Origin: Gammaproteobacteria bacterium
GTDB taxonomy: Bacteria > Pseudomonadota > Gammaproteobacteria > Acidiferrobacterales > Sulfurifustaceae
Assembly: GCA_016199745.1 (NCBI GenBank)
Contig: JACQFZ010000044.1
Coordinates: 1 to 35,577 of the forward strand
Reading direction: 5' to 3'
Length of the DNA: 35,577 nucleotides
Position numbers and translations under genes: made by a program. This document shows, one piece after another, positions 21,406 through 35,577 of this stretch. Under the pieces are notes generated by a model that did no database searches, was not told the DNA's origin, and worked only from the letters and a program-made list of their open reading frames with translations. Each line of letters begins with the position of its first letter. The stretch's first letter is position 1.

Positions 21406-22332
21406 ATGCAAGCCATCATCTCCATATCGAATCTCTCCAAAACCTACGCCTCTGGATTTAACGCGCTCAAAAGCGTCAATCTCGCTATTCGCCGCGGCGA
21501 GATCTTCGCGCTGCTAGGGCCGAATGGCGCGGGCAAAACCACGTTAATCGGCATCATCTGCGGGATTGTTAAGCCGAGTGGTGGGACCGTCGTCGTCGAT
21601 GGTCACAATATCCTCACCGATTACCGCGCCGCTCGCGCCAAGATCGGTCTCGTGCCGCAGGAACTGACGACCGATGCCTTCGAAACGGTGTGGAACGCGG
21701 TGTCCTTCAGTCGCGGATTGTTCGGCAAGCCGGCAAACCCCGGCCACATCGAAAAAGTACTGAAAGACCTATCGTTGTGGAACAAGAAAGACAACAAGAT
21801 CATGACGCTGTCGGGTGGCATGAAGCGTCGGTTGCTCATCGCCAAAGCACTGTCGCATGAGCCGCAAGTATTGTTTCTCGATGAGCCGAGTGCCGGCGTC
21901 GACGTCGAGCTCCGGCAGGATATGTGGCAAATGGTGCGCTCGCTGCGCGCCAGCGGCGTGACCGTTATTTTGACCACGCATTACATCGACGAGGCCGAAG
22001 ATATGGCCGACCGGATCGGTGTCATCAGCAAGGGCGAGATCATCGTCGTCGAAGATAAAGTCGAACTGATGCGCAAGCTTGGCAAGAAGCAGCTGACGCT
22101 CCATCTGCAAGATCCGCTCGACCGCATCCCACCGGCACTCGCGGCTTACCCATTGCAATTGGCCAACAATGGCGTCGATCTGATTTACACCTACGATGCA
22201 CAGGTCGAAAAAACCGGCATCGTTCCCTTGCTCAAAGATCTCAACGACGCCGGCATTTCGTTCAAAGACCTGCAGACGACGCAGAGCTCGCTCGAAGATA
22301 TCTTCGTCAGTCTCGTGAGGAACGATAAATGA
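21406..22332 (+). CDS. ABC-2 type exporter, ATP-binding subunit
   Basis: A 308-residue ATPase of the DrrA/YadG type. Walker A is GPNGAGKTT near residues 38-46, the signature LSGGMKRRL is near 135, Walker B is [12 protein letters not shown] near 155 and the switch region [14 protein letters not shown] is near 187. The C-terminal 85 residues form the usual extension of export ATPases. It energises the permease encoded immediately downstream, with which it overlaps by four bases (ATGA). Such pairs export drugs, polysaccharides or lipids; YadGH is a close type. The substrate cannot be told from sequence. Confidence 0.9.
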
Positions 22333-30859: not shown

Positions 30860-33007
30860 CTACGCCTCGACGCGGTACCGCGGGTCCATCACAGTGGAAT
30901 AAATGAGGTTGAGCAAATGCATCTTGCTCATTGGCTTGAGCATGAACAAATTTGCCCCCGCCTCGGTGACCTTGCTTTGGTACTCCAGCACACCGTGACT
31001 GGAATGAATGCAGACGTTTACCGAGTTACCGCTTTCGCGCAGCCGCTTGACCGCTTCGAACCCGCTCAGCCGGCCCTTGCCGAAATTGACGTCCATGATG
31101 ACGATATCGAAATGCCCGGTCGCTAATGTCTCTAGCGCTTTCTCGGCGCTATTGACGAAAACCAACTGCACGTGAGATTTAAGCGACGATTCCTCTACAT
31201 GAGATTCCAGTACCCGCTGGTACAGCGATTCATCGTCCGCCACCAGCACCTTCACCGGTTTGGACGATTGCCGCGCGATATCCATGATCCGCTCGGCGAG
31301 TTTGGTTTCGTTGCTAGGAATGGTCGATGGCTCATATCGATGAGCCTCGATGATTTGCAGAGCAGCGATGATGTCGCTGCTGCCGGCAGGCAAGGCGCCG
31401 GCATTACGTTCCGACAAAACATCGGCCATGGGCAATGTGAAGACAAACTCGGTACCCATTTCTTGCGAGGAACGACAGCTGACGTCGCCGCCGTGATCGA
31501 TGACGAGCTTGCGTACGATCGCCAGTCCTAAGCCGACGCCGCTGTGTTTTCCCTCCGTAAAAAAGGCGTCGAAGATCTGTTCGCGTTTTTCCTCCACGAC
31601 GAAACTGCCGCTGTTGCCTATTACGACTTCGATCATCGGCGGTGATCGATCAGGAAATTCGCGAGTTTTGAACCATAGCTCGCTGCTGGGGCGCATGGCT
31701 TCAATCGCGTTGAAGGTGATGTTCGAGAAGATCCGCGAGACTTTTATGGGATCGACGAGGAGGGCATGGTGATGCTTGAGCGCATAACGAAACTTGATAT
31801 CGCGGCGCACATATATTCTAAAAGCGTCGTTAAGAGTCGTCTGAATCAACGAAGACAGATGCACGATTTCCTGGTTCGGCTGCTTGGTACTGCCCACTTC
31901 CATGATGTCGCGAATCAGCCCTTCGGCCGATAGCACGGCCTTATCGATTTCCGGTGCGAGCTTGCGAAGTAACGCATTAGCGCTGGCAGGATCTTTCGCG
32001 TTGCGCGTCAGGTGCACCAGCCCCTTTAACATGGCGAACGGTTTTCGTACGTCATGCGCGAGCATCTGCGTCGTTCGGCCGATGGCCGCCAAGGTCGATT
32101 GTTGCAATAGCTTCGCCTTTAATTCTCGTTCGTATTTTATGTAGCTCTCGAACGATTCTTTCAGCATCGCTAGCTCGTGATGCTGTGTATAGCCGGGCGC
32201 CTTATCCATTTGCTGGCTCACGTAATGTGTGAGATTGGTGATGGGCTTTACAATGCGCGAACGCATCAAGTACAAGCCAGCCATCGTCGCAATCATTAGA
32301 ACGATGACTAACACGATAAGGTAGGGGACGTACTGCCAGGGACTCACTGCATTATCGTTGTCGATTTCGAGATCGATACCGGATATGGACGGTTGGGTGG
32401 AGATCTTATCGATCCTAATGGGATCGCCTAAGGATTTCCGCCAAGGCGAAAGATCTATCTCTAATACAAGGAAACCTTTCAGTTTTGCCGATGGCCCCGG
32501 AAACTCTTGGTCATCATAGGCGATGGGACGGTAATAGCGCAGTGTGTTCTGGTCGACTAGAGAAAACCCGTAGTCGTTGGCCTTATCGTGTAGATATTTT
32601 TTTTCGTCTGGTGGGAAGGAAAATATTCTGGCCGACCTCTTATCTAGAATAGTAAAGGATAAAATTTCAGGCGCCTTTGCCTTCAGCGACGAAATTCGTC
32701 CATAGAGCAAGTTGCCGGTCATTGGCTGTACCGATTCCGCTATAAAGATAAAGTCATTCAGCTCTCGGCTGGCTAGCAAAATCTCGGCAATTGCTTCAAT
32801 GCTTAACATCTGACTGTTGAGGGCGATCTTTGCCTGGTCGAGTCTATGCTGCACTCGTGCCTGATCGATTTGGCCCAGATAAGAATTCATTTGTACCAAG
32901 ATAAGCGCGGCAGCGATTGCCACCGGTATCCAGGAGCAGATCAATAAAATAAATAGCGCGTCGTGGTTAAATCTACGGCGCATAACGAACAGATCGCCAC
33001 CATTCAT
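30860..33007 (-). CDS. membrane hybrid histidine kinase with C-terminal receiver domain
   Basis: A 715-residue protein. Membrane helices at about 16-38 and 228-248 frame a periplasmic sensor of about 190 residues. A HAMP-like segment and coiled coil follow. The kinase has its phospho-acceptor at His318 (LAHDVRKPF), N box at FSNITFNAIEAM (Asn433) and GVGLGLAIVRK near 490-500. The G1 box reads VIGNSGSF where an aspartate is usual (VxDxGxG), so nucleotide binding may be altered. Residues 585-715 are a receiver with DD at 591-592, phospho-acceptor Asp639 (IVIMDVNFG), Ser669/670 and Lys691. The start overlaps the end of the binding-protein gene (35 bases from ATG 33007; 11 bases from ATG 32983, which is also possible). 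No output domain follows, so the receiver must pass the signal to another protein. Confidence 0.85.
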   Translation of the reverse strand: MNGGDLFVMRRRFNHDALFILLICSWIPVAIAAALILVQMNSYLGQIDQARVQHRLDQAKIALNSQMLSIEAIAEILLASRELNDFIFIAESVQPMTGNLLYGRISSLKAKAPEILSFTILDKRSARIFSFPPDEKKYLHDKANDYGFSLVDQNTLRYYRPIAYDDQEFPGPSAKLKGFLVLEIDLSPWRKSLGDPIRIDKISTQPSISGIDLEIDNDNAVSPWQYVPYLIVLVIVLMIATMAGLYLMRSRIVKPITNLTHYVSQQMDKAPGYTQHHELAMLKESFESYIKYERELKAKLLQQSTLAAIGRTTQMLAHDVRKPFAMLKGLVHLTRNAKDPASANALLRKLAPEIDKAVLSAEGLIRDIMEVGSTKQPNQEIVHLSSLIQTTLNDAFRIYVRRDIKFRYALKHHHALLVDPIKVSRIFSNITFNAIEAMRPSSELWFKTREFPDRSPPMIEVVIGNSGSFVVEEKREQIFDAFFTEGKHSGVGLGLAIVRKLVIDHGGDVSCRSSQEMGTEFVFTLPMADVLSERNAGALPAGSSDIIAALQIIEAHRYEPSTIPSNETKLAERIMDIARQSSKPVKVLVADDESLYQRVLESHVEESSLKSHVQLVFVNSAEKALETLATGHFDIVIMDVNFGKGRLSGFEAVKRLRESGNSVNVCIHSSHGVLEYQSKVTEAGANLFMLKPMSKMHLLNLIYSTVMDPRYRVEA

Positions 33008-34040
33008 TAAGACGGGCGTGCACTGGCGAGGACGGAGGCATTAGCATGACGGGCCTGTTTTGTTGTAAATTTTTTGTCACCTCCTCATATATCTCCTTTG
33101 TTGGTGGCAACAAGCCAGGCGTATGGTTCCGGTAAGGCGAGAAGTACTGATTAGAACTCATATTCAGTTCCGTACTCTTCTTGTCAGTCAATGTTTCTAC
33201 GTATTTGACTAACGTACCGAGAGGTACTTTCCGATCCTTTCTTTTGATGATGCAAACTGAGTCGTAACCAATAACTGGTCTAGAAGGAACCTTGGCTCGT
33301 AAGGATGGATGCTTCGCTAGATGCATGAATGCTGCACCGTGCCATGCGTAAGCGGCGATCTTCGGATGTTTTAGTAGATCATCTAATGCGGAGACAAAAT
33401 CACCCGGTTCAAGTCCTTCAATTTGCGAAAACTTCGCGTTCGGGCAGTTCGATAAGATGTCGAAAATATTGCCGCCGACATAGTCATCCGGTGACTTACC
33501 GCAGACTTTATTTGAATCACCGATTAGGCGCGCAGCCGTTTCGTACGGATCATCGACGACGGCTATTTTGTATCCTTGCTTTTTAAGAGCCACGAGCTCC
33601 TGCAAACTGCTGGGTACATTCGGTGTTTGCTCTTTTTCTGCAACGAATACCGTGGTCAACCAAAAATACGGTAAGCAATGCGGCATAGCGTCGGTGAATA
33701 ACGGCAGATAATCCCGCTTTTTCGCTGTGCGCCGGAACTGATTGGTTTCAATCAACCCCTGTTTGATCAAGTAGGGCAATGCAAAATTGGAAACGATTGC
33801 CACATCGAAATCGTGTTGCCGAGCAGATAGACGCGATATCGCTACTTCGTTGCTGATATAAGTGGTCGTTTTAGTTTGATAACCAAAATCAGCCAATCGT
33901 TCCGTTACAGCAGGCGCTATATAGTCCCACCAGTTGTATAGGTGTACCGGCGCCGAAGGGGGGCCTGCATATTCCGCAAACCCAGGAAACGAGCAAAAGA
34001 GCAGTGTTATCGCCACAAGCGATTTGGATGCAATTTTCAA
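32973..34040 (-). CDS. polyamine-type periplasmic solute-binding protein
   Basis: A 355-residue precursor with a signal peptide (residues 1-22, ending GFAEYAG). The mature start, LYNWWDYIAPAVTERL, is strikingly like the putrescine-binding proteins PotF/SpuD (YNWSDYIAP), in which the Trp and Asp bind the ligand's amino groups, and SNEVAISRL then a FDVAIVSN stretch correspond to the next conserved blocks. So a putrescine, spermidine or related cationic ligand is likely. The start is TTG 34040, overlapping the acyltransferase stop (TTGA), so translation is coupled. No permease or ATPase gene is present in the operon; the next gene is a histidine kinase, which suggests a sensory rather than a transport role. 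Confidence 0.82.
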   Translation of the reverse strand: MKIASKSLVAITLLFCSFPGFAEYAGPPSAPVHLYNWWDYIAPAVTERLADFGYQTKTTTYISNEVAISRLSARQHDFDVAIVSNFALPYLIKQGLIETNQFRRTAKKRDYLPLFTDAMPHCLPYFWLTTVFVAEKEQTPNVPSSLQELVALKKQGYKIAVVDDPYETAARLIGDSNKVCGKSPDDYVGGNIFDILSNCPNAKFSQIEGLEPGDFVSALDDLLKHPKIAAYAWHGAAFMHLAKHPSLRAKVPSRPVIGYDSVCIIKRKDRKVPLGTLVKYVETLTDKKSTELNMSSNQYFSPYRNHTPGLLPPTKEIYEEVTKNLQQNRPVMLMPPSSPVHARLNEWWRSVRYAP

Positions 34041-34717
34041 TATTGTTTCCTCTTTCGAAGATCACTCTTAATCCAAAGTGACATTTTATTAGGCACATAA
34101 CAGACCGACCCGTCTTTCATTCGAGTGGGCCACCAGTATGCGAATTGAATGTTAGTACGCCTATAGCCAAATCGTCGCCACAATGGACCTGGCTCTTTGT
34201 AGTCGCGCGGTTTTCGAGGATCATGATCCTCCCGTATTATTGTCGCAAGGCACATATGATCGTATCCCCATTCGATTGCCTGGGATTCGATCTGCTGATT
34301 AAAACGAGAAAGAATGGTATGGCCTCGGAATTCTGGTGCAATAGCAGCTTCGCTCCAATAGTAGAAGTCCGATGGACGACAACCATTCTGTATGAACATC
34401 GGCTCATCATCATCCAAAACCTCTGCAGCACTCATTAATGGAAACGCGGTTGTAAAACCTGCTGGTATATTGCCGTAGTATGCTACAACGATGATCGTAT
34501 GCTCACTTTGGGATAGTTCTTCAGCACACTGTCTCTCATACAGGTTTTCGCGGCGTCCTTCGTACAAATATGGGTAGTCACGAAAATTCTGGGTTCGCAT
34601 TGCGTTAAGTGGCTCAATAAGATCCGCAGTGTTTCTGCCGATGAATGTTTCATATTCAAATTCGTCTCGATAGGGGGCAGGCCGAACGACGGCGTCGTAT
34701 CGGGAAACAATTTGCAT
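34037..34717 (-). CDS. GNAT-family N-acyltransferase
   Basis: A 226-residue protein with a GNAT fold. After an N-terminal region with LYEGRRENLYERQ comes VVAYYGNIPAGFTTAFPL (strands 3-4) and then AAIAPEFRGHTILSRFNQQI, which corresponds to the acyl-CoA-binding motif A with a somewhat degenerate loop. The C-terminal part, GPLWRRFGYRRTNIQFAYWW, and a final NKMSLWIKSDL resemble the GNAT group whose members also occur joined to a nitrilase domain (YhcX type). It transfers an acyl group from CoA to an amine; the amine is unknown. The next gene encodes a polyamine-type binding protein, so a polyamine is a reasonable but unproved substrate. Confidence 0.78.
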   Translation of the reverse strand: MQIVSRYDAVVRPAPYRDEFEYETFIGRNTADLIEPLNAMRTQNFRDYPYLYEGRRENLYERQCAEELSQSEHTIIVVAYYGNIPAGFTTAFPLMSAAEVLDDDEPMFIQNGCRPSDFYYWSEAAIAPEFRGHTILSRFNQQIESQAIEWGYDHMCLATIIREDHDPRKPRDYKEPGPLWRRFGYRRTNIQFAYWWPTRMKDGSVCYVPNKMSLWIKSDLRKRKQY

Positions 34718-34735
34718 GTGTCAGTGACCTACGGT

Positions 34736-35033
34736 TCATATAGTTATCCGTTGGCCCTCGCCAGCTGTGGCTCGGACATGCATTCCGTTGCCGACGACAG
34801 CTCCATACTCGATCAACTCTCGCAGAAAGCAGTGCGAACGGATCAAGGGTTCGGGATGCCAGGGGTACGCCGTCGAGGCGATCCTTAGCGCGTTCGTGAT
34901 AGGGGCGCCACGTTGGTTAAAAAATACGTAGCGAGAAAAAGTAGCGATAGGCGGAGGTATTTGGCGGGGACTCGACGCGACGAAGGTCGGTGTCCCAAGC
35001 ATCGTCGTCAACGACCGACTGCTTTTGCTTCAT
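34736..35033 (-). CDS. small unknown gene at the head of the signalling operon, with an apparent one-base slip
   Basis: ATG 35033 follows AGAGAGGA and starts a 38-codon frame (MKQKQSVVDDDAWDTD and 22 more residues) ending in TAA at 34917-34919. The stop lies in a run of six T. One T fewer, or a +1 slip at UUU-U-AAC, joins it to a second open frame (NQRGAPITNALRIA onward) that ends at 34736, 19 bases before the acyltransferase start. The joined product would be about 98 residues. Without the slip the second part could start only at a TTG near 35011. The family is not recognised. Possible readings: sequencing error, a recent mutation, or programmed frameshifting. Confidence 0.5.
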
Positions 35034-35272
35034 AGAGCATCCTCTCTGATTTTGCGGGTTCCTCCTGCGGCAGGAGGGGGCATGTATCCGGCTGCCTATA
35101 GTAATGCAACTTTTGGCGTTAAGCTCTCAGGCGGCTTCCGGGGAGCTCAGCCAGCGATGACATGCCCTAATCCTGCCCAGTTTAATGGGTAGACGACCGC
35201 GTTAATGGTCTGTTAGAAAGTATCCGCCGGTGCAACGCCGGCGATTCGGTAAACAACGACACAGGGAGGAAA
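35034..35272. promoter_or_regulatory. leader/promoter region between the signalling operon and the right-hand elements
   Basis: No gene is visible here. Hairpins: CCTCCTG-CGG-CAGGAGG at 35061-35077, CTGCCCA..TGGGTAG near 35170-35195, and GCCGG-TGCAACG-CCGGC near 35225-35243. The first lies 28 bases upstream of the operon's first start codon and may form in its leader RNA. The second and third precede the small ORF at 35273 on the plus strand and may be part of its leader. None matches a riboswitch that I can name. Confidence 0.3.
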
Positions 35273-35359
35273 ATGTCGATCGCATTTTTTAATCCGCAAA
35301 CACAATCGATACAAGCCGACGCGCTGCGTTATCGGCCGCGCGTTTCCGTTTGTCGGTAA
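35273..35359 (+). CDS. possible small ORF (28 residues)
   Basis: ATG 35273 follows GGGAGGAAA, a strong ribosome site, and opens a 28-codon frame (MSIAFFNPQTQSIQADALRY and eight more residues) that ends in TAA at 35357-35359. It has no signal peptide, double-glycine leader or known motif. A second start with nearly the same leader (GGAGGGAGC-ATGTCGATC) follows at 35425, so the two may be copies of one upstream region. The frame could be a real small protein, the truncated start of a larger one or a chance frame. Confidence 0.35.
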   Translation: MSIAFFNPQTQSIQADALRYRPRVSVCR

Positions 35360-35439
35360 GAATCGAGGCTACGTTCAATTCGAAAACATAGCGTCATCAC
35401 ATCAACAACAAACATGGAGGGAGCATGTCGATCTTCTTA

Positions 35440-35577
35440 GTGCGACACGAGGCTGTGTCGTGAAGTTGTTTTCCCAAGGAGGGAGAAAACCACCGGTGTC
35501 ACCCGGTGACGCTAGGGATCTGAATCAAGAGCGATCCTAACAATGTAACAAAGCGCGCGGTACGGCGCGGGGCGGTA
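35440..35577 (+). mobile_element. probable 5' end of a group II intron (runs off the window)
   Basis: The sequence from 35440 begins GTGCGACAC-gaggct-GTGTCGT-GAAGT, the common 5' start of bacterial group II introns (GUGCG, then a stem-loop and AAGU). It is followed by a chain of stems: GTTTTC..GAAAAC (35466-35490), CACCGG..CCGGTG (about 35492-35509) and AGGGATC..GATCCT (about 35513-35538). The dense structure and lack of coding fit domain I. It would interrupt a gene that starts at ATG 35425 (MSIFL). The reverse-transcriptase ORF and 3' end should lie beyond the window. Alternatively ATG 35425 starts a short frame reading MSIFLVRHEAVS, which vaguely resembles the RHG motif of histidine phosphatases, but it stops after 12 codons. 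Confidence 0.5.

Follow-up and report, generated by a model that had tools for sequence, protein, structure and literature searches.

The window analyzed here, 35,577 nt long, is the whole of contig C44 (JACQFZ010000044.1), one of 72 contigs in the assembly GCA_016199745.1 of a gammaproteobacterium of the family Sulfurifustaceae. Near its end lies a minus-strand operon for a GNAT-like protein, a periplasmic binding protein of the PotF/PotD type and a hybrid histidine kinase, which, together with a regulator encoded elsewhere in the genome, may form a three-component amine sensor. The features listed below were defined in part by comparison with a second copy of the operon on contig C2 of the same genome.

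30860-32983, minus strand: hybrid histidine kinase, 707 amino acids (aa) (Pfam; paralog on C2 68% identical; start refined by comparison with C2).
32318-32878, minus strand: extracytoplasmic sensor region of the kinase, with a weak prediction of a PAS/Cache-like fold (hydropathy, single-sequence AlphaFold2, fold comparisons).
32973-34040, minus strand: PotF/PotD-type periplasmic binding protein with an altered pocket, 355 aa, TTG start (PDB profile search; NCBIfam scores far below cut-offs; pocket mapping; paralog on C2 74% identical).
34037-34717, minus strand: diverged GNAT-like protein, 226 aa (Pfam match just below cut-off; tblastn; alignment; paralog on C2 48-49% identical).
34718-35423, minus strand: leader 5' of the acyltransferase gene (three short stretches weakly similar to the C2 leader).
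34917-35033, minus strand: proposed small gene, 38 aa plus stop (unsupported as a conserved gene).
35424-35577, plus strand: dispersed repeat at the contig end (repeat comparison across contigs).

An earlier note on this DNA had described four packed minus-strand genes with coupled starts, one of them a small gene. The genes for the GNAT-like protein, the binding protein and the kinase are present and overlap, whereas the small gene could not be sustained as a member of the operon. As the note had it, the TTG start codon of the binding-protein gene (34040-34038) overlaps the TGA stop codon of the acyltransferase gene (34039-34037); it is preceded by the ribosome-binding site AGAGGAAA. The start of the kinase gene, also as claimed, overlaps the end of the binding-protein gene. 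Its reading frame is open from 33007 (715 aa), and an ATG at 32983, which gives 707 aa and an overlap of 11 nt, is common to the window and C2 copies; for this reason 32983, and not 33007, is the most likely start of the kinase. The proposed small gene, a 38-aa open reading frame (ORF; 34920-35033 plus stop), matched nothing in Pfam or NCBIfam at E ≤ 1 and had no counterpart on C2, where its best match anywhere on the contig reached only E 0.46, and it was therefore not counted in the system. AGAGGA stands before its ATG, and the ORF could conceivably encode a leader peptide.

The copy on contig C2 is arranged in the order GNATb, response regulator, GNAT, binding protein and kinase, with another GNATb gene ~2.3 kb further on; its response regulator lies 425 nt upstream of the paralogous operon. 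Both the AGAGGAAA...TTGA junction in front of the binding protein and the 11-nt kinase overlap are retained there, and this sharing of gene order and junctions indicates that the co-location is more than chance. Synonymous differences between the two copies are saturated (proportion of synonymous differences, pS, 0.75 for the binding protein and 0.77 for the kinase) and nonsynonymous differences are few (pN 0.14 and 0.19, respectively), which shows that both proteins are under constraint in both copies. The locus is thus a duplicated and constrained binding-protein/kinase pair to which a GNAT-like gene is coupled.

Such a duplicate could also be a relict, in which signalling genes are slowly being lost, the GNAT is inactive and the kinase is doubtful. 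A TGA breaks the GNAT gene on C2 (L008:17357-17980) behind codon 132, at a residue that is tryptophan in the window, and this would fit decay, as would the absence of the coenzyme A (CoA) loop from both GNAT copies, the altered G1 box of the kinase and a G+C content for the operon (46-51%) below the 55% of the contig. Yet the pN/pS pattern is one of constraint on the binding protein and the kinase, and the C2 GNAT is at least as well conserved after the TGA as before it (pN 0.25 against 0.33), so that the stop is either recent or a sequence error. Furthermore, the acid pocket, phosphoacceptor aspartate and lysine of the receiver are present in both aligned kinase copies. We consider decay quite improbable.

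The kinase had been described as having a large periplasmic sensor and a receiver but no output domain, and this description was borne out. Pfam recognized HATPase_c and Response_reg domains, and hydropathy placed membrane segments at about residues 12-37 and 222-240 (numbered in the 707-aa form), which leave ~185 residues in the periplasm. A HisKA match remained under the Pfam cut-off (21.4 against 26.9 bits). Converted approximately from the Pfam residues, the domains span 31892-32080 (HisKA), 31424-31753 (HATPase_c) and 30902-31249 (receiver). The sensor itself matched neither a Pfam family nor a PDB sequence at E ≤ 1, and its single-sequence AlphaFold2 model is weak (per-residue confidence, pLDDT, 57; predicted template-modelling score, pTM, 0.53). 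Fold comparison with this model returned mostly extracytoplasmic PAS/Cache sensors, led by WalK (Z 7.5) and TlpA (Z 7.2), although Z values up to 7.5 are in the range commonly reached in this comparison; Foldseek gave no match to the model at E ≤ 0.001. The predicted sensor thus weakly resembles an extracytoplasmic PAS/Cache domain.

The binding protein had been singled out for a PotF-like YNWxDYIAP start, and the relationship was confirmed by a profile search of the PDB, in which residues ~30-175 matched PotF/PotD-type chains at E 6e-8 to 1e-3. Against the NCBIfam PotD and PotF models the protein reached E ~1e-4 and 21 bits, far below the cut-offs of 582 and 636, and it is accordingly a distant relative of these proteins rather than an equivalog. 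A single-sequence model was too poor for use (pLDDT 38), and the pocket was mapped by alignment with Escherichia coli PotF and PotF-like proteins. In PotF, the N1-amine site consists of S38, D39 and D247, the aromatic box of W37, W244 and F276, and the distal site of S85, S87, A182, E185, D278 and L348 (PMC8666671). Both copies retain W37, D39, S85, E185, W244 and D278 and have in common the changes S38 to W, D247 to A, F276 to G and S87 to F; position 182 is D in both, which is the PotD-like state (PMC8666671). The protein is 19% identical to PotF overall, and the stretch W244-x-G-247 aligns free of gaps. Position 314, which aligned inconsistently (S or gap), was left unused, and position 348 belongs to the same C-terminal half, where the alignment is poor.

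An acid stands at position 247 in 96% or more of the PotF set of the published study, in which a triple change of the N1 site that included D247S abolished putrescine binding (PMC8666671). Among the 35 PotF-like proteins that we aligned (from 29 genome loci and four plasmid loci), 26 have D or E at this position, which is alanine in the window copy (residue 236) and in the C2 copy. That both copies keep the aromatic clamp and distal acids but have lost the first-amine acid suggests a ligand that would carry one free amine and whose other end is probably uncharged or acidic. As judged from the aligned pocket residues, an N-acylated amine and an omega-amino acid such as gamma-aminobutyric acid (GABA) would fit the lost D247 site equally well. 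The loss of this acid is a pocket feature to seek in other PotF-like proteins.

No transporter gene adjoins either copy of the pair, on C44 as far as the contig reaches. The operon had been said to include neither a permease nor an ATPase. By tblastn, E. coli PotH and PotI matched no permease on C44 or C2; PotG-like ATPases of the ATP-binding cassette (ABC) type do occur in the window, but the nearest (21415-22068) is 8.8 kb off. With PotG, PotH and PotI together as queries, ABC ATPases were the only matches on the two contigs, and these were distant or weak. A Pot-like ABC operon with a binding protein of its own was found elsewhere in the genome, on C70. In other genomes, 23 of 29 PotF-like loci had at least one of PotG, PotH and PotI within 1.5-kb flanks. 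An ordinary Pot importer operon was rejected as an account of the locus, given the lack of a permease on C44 and C2 against these 23 loci with Pot genes.

The same 29 loci and flanks were searched for kinases by phmmer with two HisKA-type kinases, those of the window and of contig C55. No locus had a match to either, in a test that detects kinases of the HisKA type and misses those of the HisKA_2 type; it recovered the kinases of L098, L096 and C55 and missed the HisKA_2 kinase of L111. A Pfam scan of 17 flank frames, restricted to the six loci without Pot genes (the other 23 were outside the scan), found no kinase. One of the six, L032, has a dCache-HAMP-GGDEF-EAL receptor gene 34 nt after the PotF-like protein, and the same pair stands on a longer stretch (L141, 6843-10404; G186:C133) from a genome of the same class. 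Its make-up is that of NspS-MbaA of Vibrio cholerae and Sinorhizobium meliloti, adjacent genes in which a PotD/PotF-type protein signals to a membrane receptor (PMC9993111). The L141 binding protein is clearly SBP_bac_8, unlike that of the window. The pair suggests that the PotF-like family is used for sensing elsewhere; this strengthens the case for a sensing role, while the limit of the kinase test weakens it. NspS-MbaA resembles the window in that the gene for a PotD/PotF-type periplasmic protein adjoins a receptor gene, which in the window is the likely partner in place of a transporter; it differs in that MbaA is a GGDEF-EAL protein, whereas Pfam identifies the window receptor as a hybrid histidine kinase, and in that the window pocket is without the D247 acid.

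An output regulator had been noted as missing. The window indeed holds no ANTAR regulator, but the C2 copy supplies a plausible candidate. The response regulator on C2 has Response_reg and ANTAR domains above the Pfam cut-offs (ANTAR, 32 against 27.3 bits), and its best relatives of solved structure are 6wsh, a response regulator that we take to be EutV, and 1s8n, a putative antiterminator. ANTAR matches in the genome number four, on C2, C67, C55 and C48, and three are above the cut-off. The C67 regulator is 73% identical to that of C2, and the C55 regulator 46%. On C55 (L060, 1069-4550), the regulator gene is followed after 351 nt by the gene for an ABC_sub_bind protein, which overlaps a kinase gene by 4 nt, all on one strand. 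Regulators of the C2 subfamily were therefore found twice with a binding-protein/kinase pair, the binding proteins being of two Pfam kinds. The C48 regulator, which is NasT-like, adjoins a nitrate-type ABC operon. Outside this genome, ANTAR matches were present in 18 of 368 others. The neighbours at 18 loci were checked and included no PotF-type or C55-type binding protein, by a crude procedure in which the ORF picker missed the regulator at six of the 18; a nitrate-type binding protein occurred at one (L116).

Taken as a whole, we give about an even chance to the reading that the operon belongs to a three-component amine sensor, in which the binding protein acts on the hybrid kinase and the kinase on a regulator with receiver and ANTAR domains (REC-ANTAR), in association with the GNAT-like protein. 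The PotF/PotD-derived periplasmic protein would capture a small ligand and control the extracytoplasmic sensor of the kinase instead of an ABC importer, as we infer because the genes are coupled, the pair recurs and no transporter accompanies it. The kinase would most likely signal to the REC-ANTAR regulator of C2 or to its close paralog on C67, with an output at the RNA level. The co-transcribed GNAT-like protein, a putative catalyst, probably acts on the ligand or on a metabolite related to it. The idea put forward earlier, that the binding protein might feed a kinase and not an importer, has gained ground: the pair occurs twice without a permease, most of the sampled PotF relatives stand in transporter operons, and the pocket has departed from that of PotF. 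Polyamine-type binding proteins are often annotated as parts of importers, and the window offers a testable case of possible conversion to a sensor. If the ANTAR link holds, periplasmic ligand sensing would be joined to control at the RNA level.

Several observations weigh against such a sensor. Besides the lack of an ANTAR regulator in the window itself, the ANTAR match of the C55 regulator is below the Pfam cut-off (22.1 against 27.3 bits). A simple script scan for the ANTAR double hairpin (A1/G4 hexaloops, total stem of at least 9 pairs) found none in the C44 and C2 leaders and one in the C48 leader before the nrtA-like gene, which served as the positive control (shuffle mean 0.01). The window binding protein did not reach any Pfam solute-binding cut-off, and its C2 copy scored 16.2 against 27 bits. 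The G1 box of histidine kinases is usually DxGxG; in this kinase it is apparently NSGSF (window) or NSHSF (C2), and the deviation means that autokinase activity is not assured. Transfer from a hybrid kinase to a regulator usually needs an HPt, and none was seen in the operon. As for synteny in other genomes, the gene order and junctions recur on C2, but the sensor was found in none of three overlapping samples (0 of 368 others in the class, 0 of 56 in the order and 0 of 397 in a phylum sample), so there is no independent conservation outside the source genome. Lastly, PA0602 and PA4985 of Pseudomonas aeruginosa, SBP_bac_8 proteins predicted to bind polyamines and encoded near the kinases AgtS and AruS, were reported to show no contact with these kinases (PMC11113362).

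The P. aeruginosa proteins are like the window protein in being predicted polyamine binders encoded near sensor kinases; they differ in that no kinase contact was found and that neither overlapping genes nor a GNAT are mentioned for them (PMC11113362). A conclusion of the same kind here would make the window protein an orphan that merely stands beside the kinase and buffers an amine or delivers it to an unlinked transporter, the kinase sensing through its own PAS/Cache-like domain. The Pot-like ABC operon on C70 could be such a transporter, and the weak sensor model does resemble ligand-binding PAS/Cache domains. On the other hand, a binding protein is encoded with the C70 transporter itself, the 11-nt overlap has been kept in both copies of the operon despite saturated synonymous divergence, and on C55 a third binding protein, from another Pfam family, likewise goes with a kinase and with a regulator that belongs to the C2 subfamily. 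We regard an orphan protein as rather unlikely, though less so than decay.

The GNAT-like protein narrowly misses the Pfam GNAT cut-off, with 19.3 bits where 20.7 are required, and tblastn gave plasmid matches down to E 3e-18, most of them annotated as GNAT or acetyltransferase. In the alignment, the window protein and its C2 copy form a subgroup beside the GNATb proteins. The CoA-binding loop of GNATs has the motif R/QxxGxG/A. It reads RGRGFG, RGRGYG and RGRGLG in three GNATb paralogs of the same genome, against RGHTIL in the window and RGYPIL on C2, and the subgroup may have lost catalytic activity or handle CoA in another way. A role as signal synthase would be conceivable for the protein.

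GNATb genes were also seen in a setting of their own. In Ruegeria and Aquicella they adjoin ketosteroid-isomerase-related and carbon-nitrogen hydrolase genes, in Sphingobium the isomerase-related gene alone with no hydrolase, and in Azospirillum the neighbourhood is different. On C50 of the source genome (L010, 8844-10830) GNATb stands with SnoaL-like and carbon-nitrogen hydrolase genes, and the trio of SnoaL/ketosteroid-isomerase-like, GNATb and carbon-nitrogen hydrolase genes recurs in alpha- and gammaproteobacteria (L010, L042, L043, L044).

The purpose of the ligand admits two readings. In one, an environmental amine or omega-amino acid (GABA, 5-aminovalerate or an agmatine-like compound) switches on its catabolism, and the GNAT-like protein serves in metabolism or detoxification rather than as a signal synthase. 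PA0602, for which polyamine binding had been predicted, binds GABA and 5-aminovalerate but neither putrescine nor spermidine (PMC11113362), and the characterized ANTAR regulators AmiR, NasR and EutV respond to amides, nitrate and ethanolamine, respectively (PMC3369931). The metabolic setting of GNATb relatives, and the GNATb genes that flank the C2 operon on both sides, point the same way. Against it, no catabolic enzyme or importer was recognized beside either copy, among neighbours that were only partly profile-scanned. Nutrient sensing is a real possibility, somewhat short of an even chance and ahead of an orphan binding protein; it can be combined with the three-component sensor, from which it differs in what the ligand is for.

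In the other, the diverged GNAT makes an exported N-acylated amine, the binding protein, remodelled for a ligand with one free amine, reports this amine to the kinase, and the REC-ANTAR regulator antiterminates. Such a self-sensing circuit, if true, would be a binding protein/kinase/antiterminator system that also includes a synthase for its signal; we know of no described system that combines these parts. In view of the altered CoA loop, the broken C2 gene and the missing sign of export, we hold it to be very improbable, the least probable of the readings considered here.

Among known systems, LuxP, TorT and XylFII are binding proteins of families other than that of the window protein, and to our knowledge no coupled acyltransferase or ANTAR regulator belongs to LuxP-LuxQ, TorT-TorS or XylFII-LytS. 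Nor do we know of a binding protein in systems of the EutW-EutV type. The former three are like the window in combining a binding protein with a kinase that has an extracytoplasmic sensor (PMC6321045). EutW-EutV is like the C2 locus in that a REC-ANTAR regulator goes together with a histidine kinase (PMC3369931); it differs in that EutV recognizes a double hairpin in the leader, none of which was found in the C44 and C2 leaders. The literature, judged from titles and the openings of abstracts, yielded no system in which an ANTAR regulator is combined with both a kinase and a binding protein, and none that unites a polyamine-type protein, a kinase and a GNAT.

The leaders of the two copies share three short, weak DNA matches that are nearly collinear (E 0.04, 0.15 and 1.9). 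Rfam at its gathering threshold had no match in the window or in the C2 loci L008 and L009, and a scan for sigma-70 promoters found none in either leader. Terminator-like sites in the window leader number five, against 0.9 in shuffles, two of the five falling in the contig-end repeat; the C2 leader has one, against 0.7 in shuffles, and thus no excess. The C48 leader (L062, 6022-6191) has a clear double hairpin in which both hexaloops are AACGGC, and there too Rfam at the gathering threshold was blank.

The low G+C content of the operon fits acquisition from elsewhere. Scans of genome contigs with the GNAT-like and binding proteins gave no relatives, and the GNAT query, run among 60 relatives with the source genome included, matched the source genome only. 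Viral or plasmid origin is unsupported: scans of viral contigs with the binding protein and with the kinase found no relatives, and the 36 plasmid records that match the binding protein are all less than 60% identical. Four of the matching plasmid records were examined: two contain Pot importer operons, and in no case does an annotated kinase adjoin the binding protein.

Upstream of the leader, the contig ends in a repeat (35424-35577) that recurs with 95-98% identity at the ends of four further contigs (C40, C72, C38 and C27) and, as an 86% identical copy, inside C38. All five contigs enter this dispersed repeat from the same side, and since it breaks the assembly at the end of C44, an upstream regulator linked to the operon, if any, would not be visible. 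At C38 and C27 the repeat starts in the 3' tail of an ORF that Pfam identifies as Hcp, and the window seems to carry the same tail. We considered that the signalling genes might lie beside cargo of a type VI secretion system and dropped the idea, as the Hcp profile has 18 matches on 14 contigs of the 4.26-Mb genome (two matches on C64 are fragments of a single site) and none on C2. On C67 (L061, 3797-7610), the ANTAR regulator has on one side two CsrA genes, one with two CsrA stretches, and on the other an hcp gene with a gene for a Tse2-like ADP-ribosyltransferase; an Rfam match to a group II intron (L061, 7473-7550, minus strand) lies inside the hcp reading frame.

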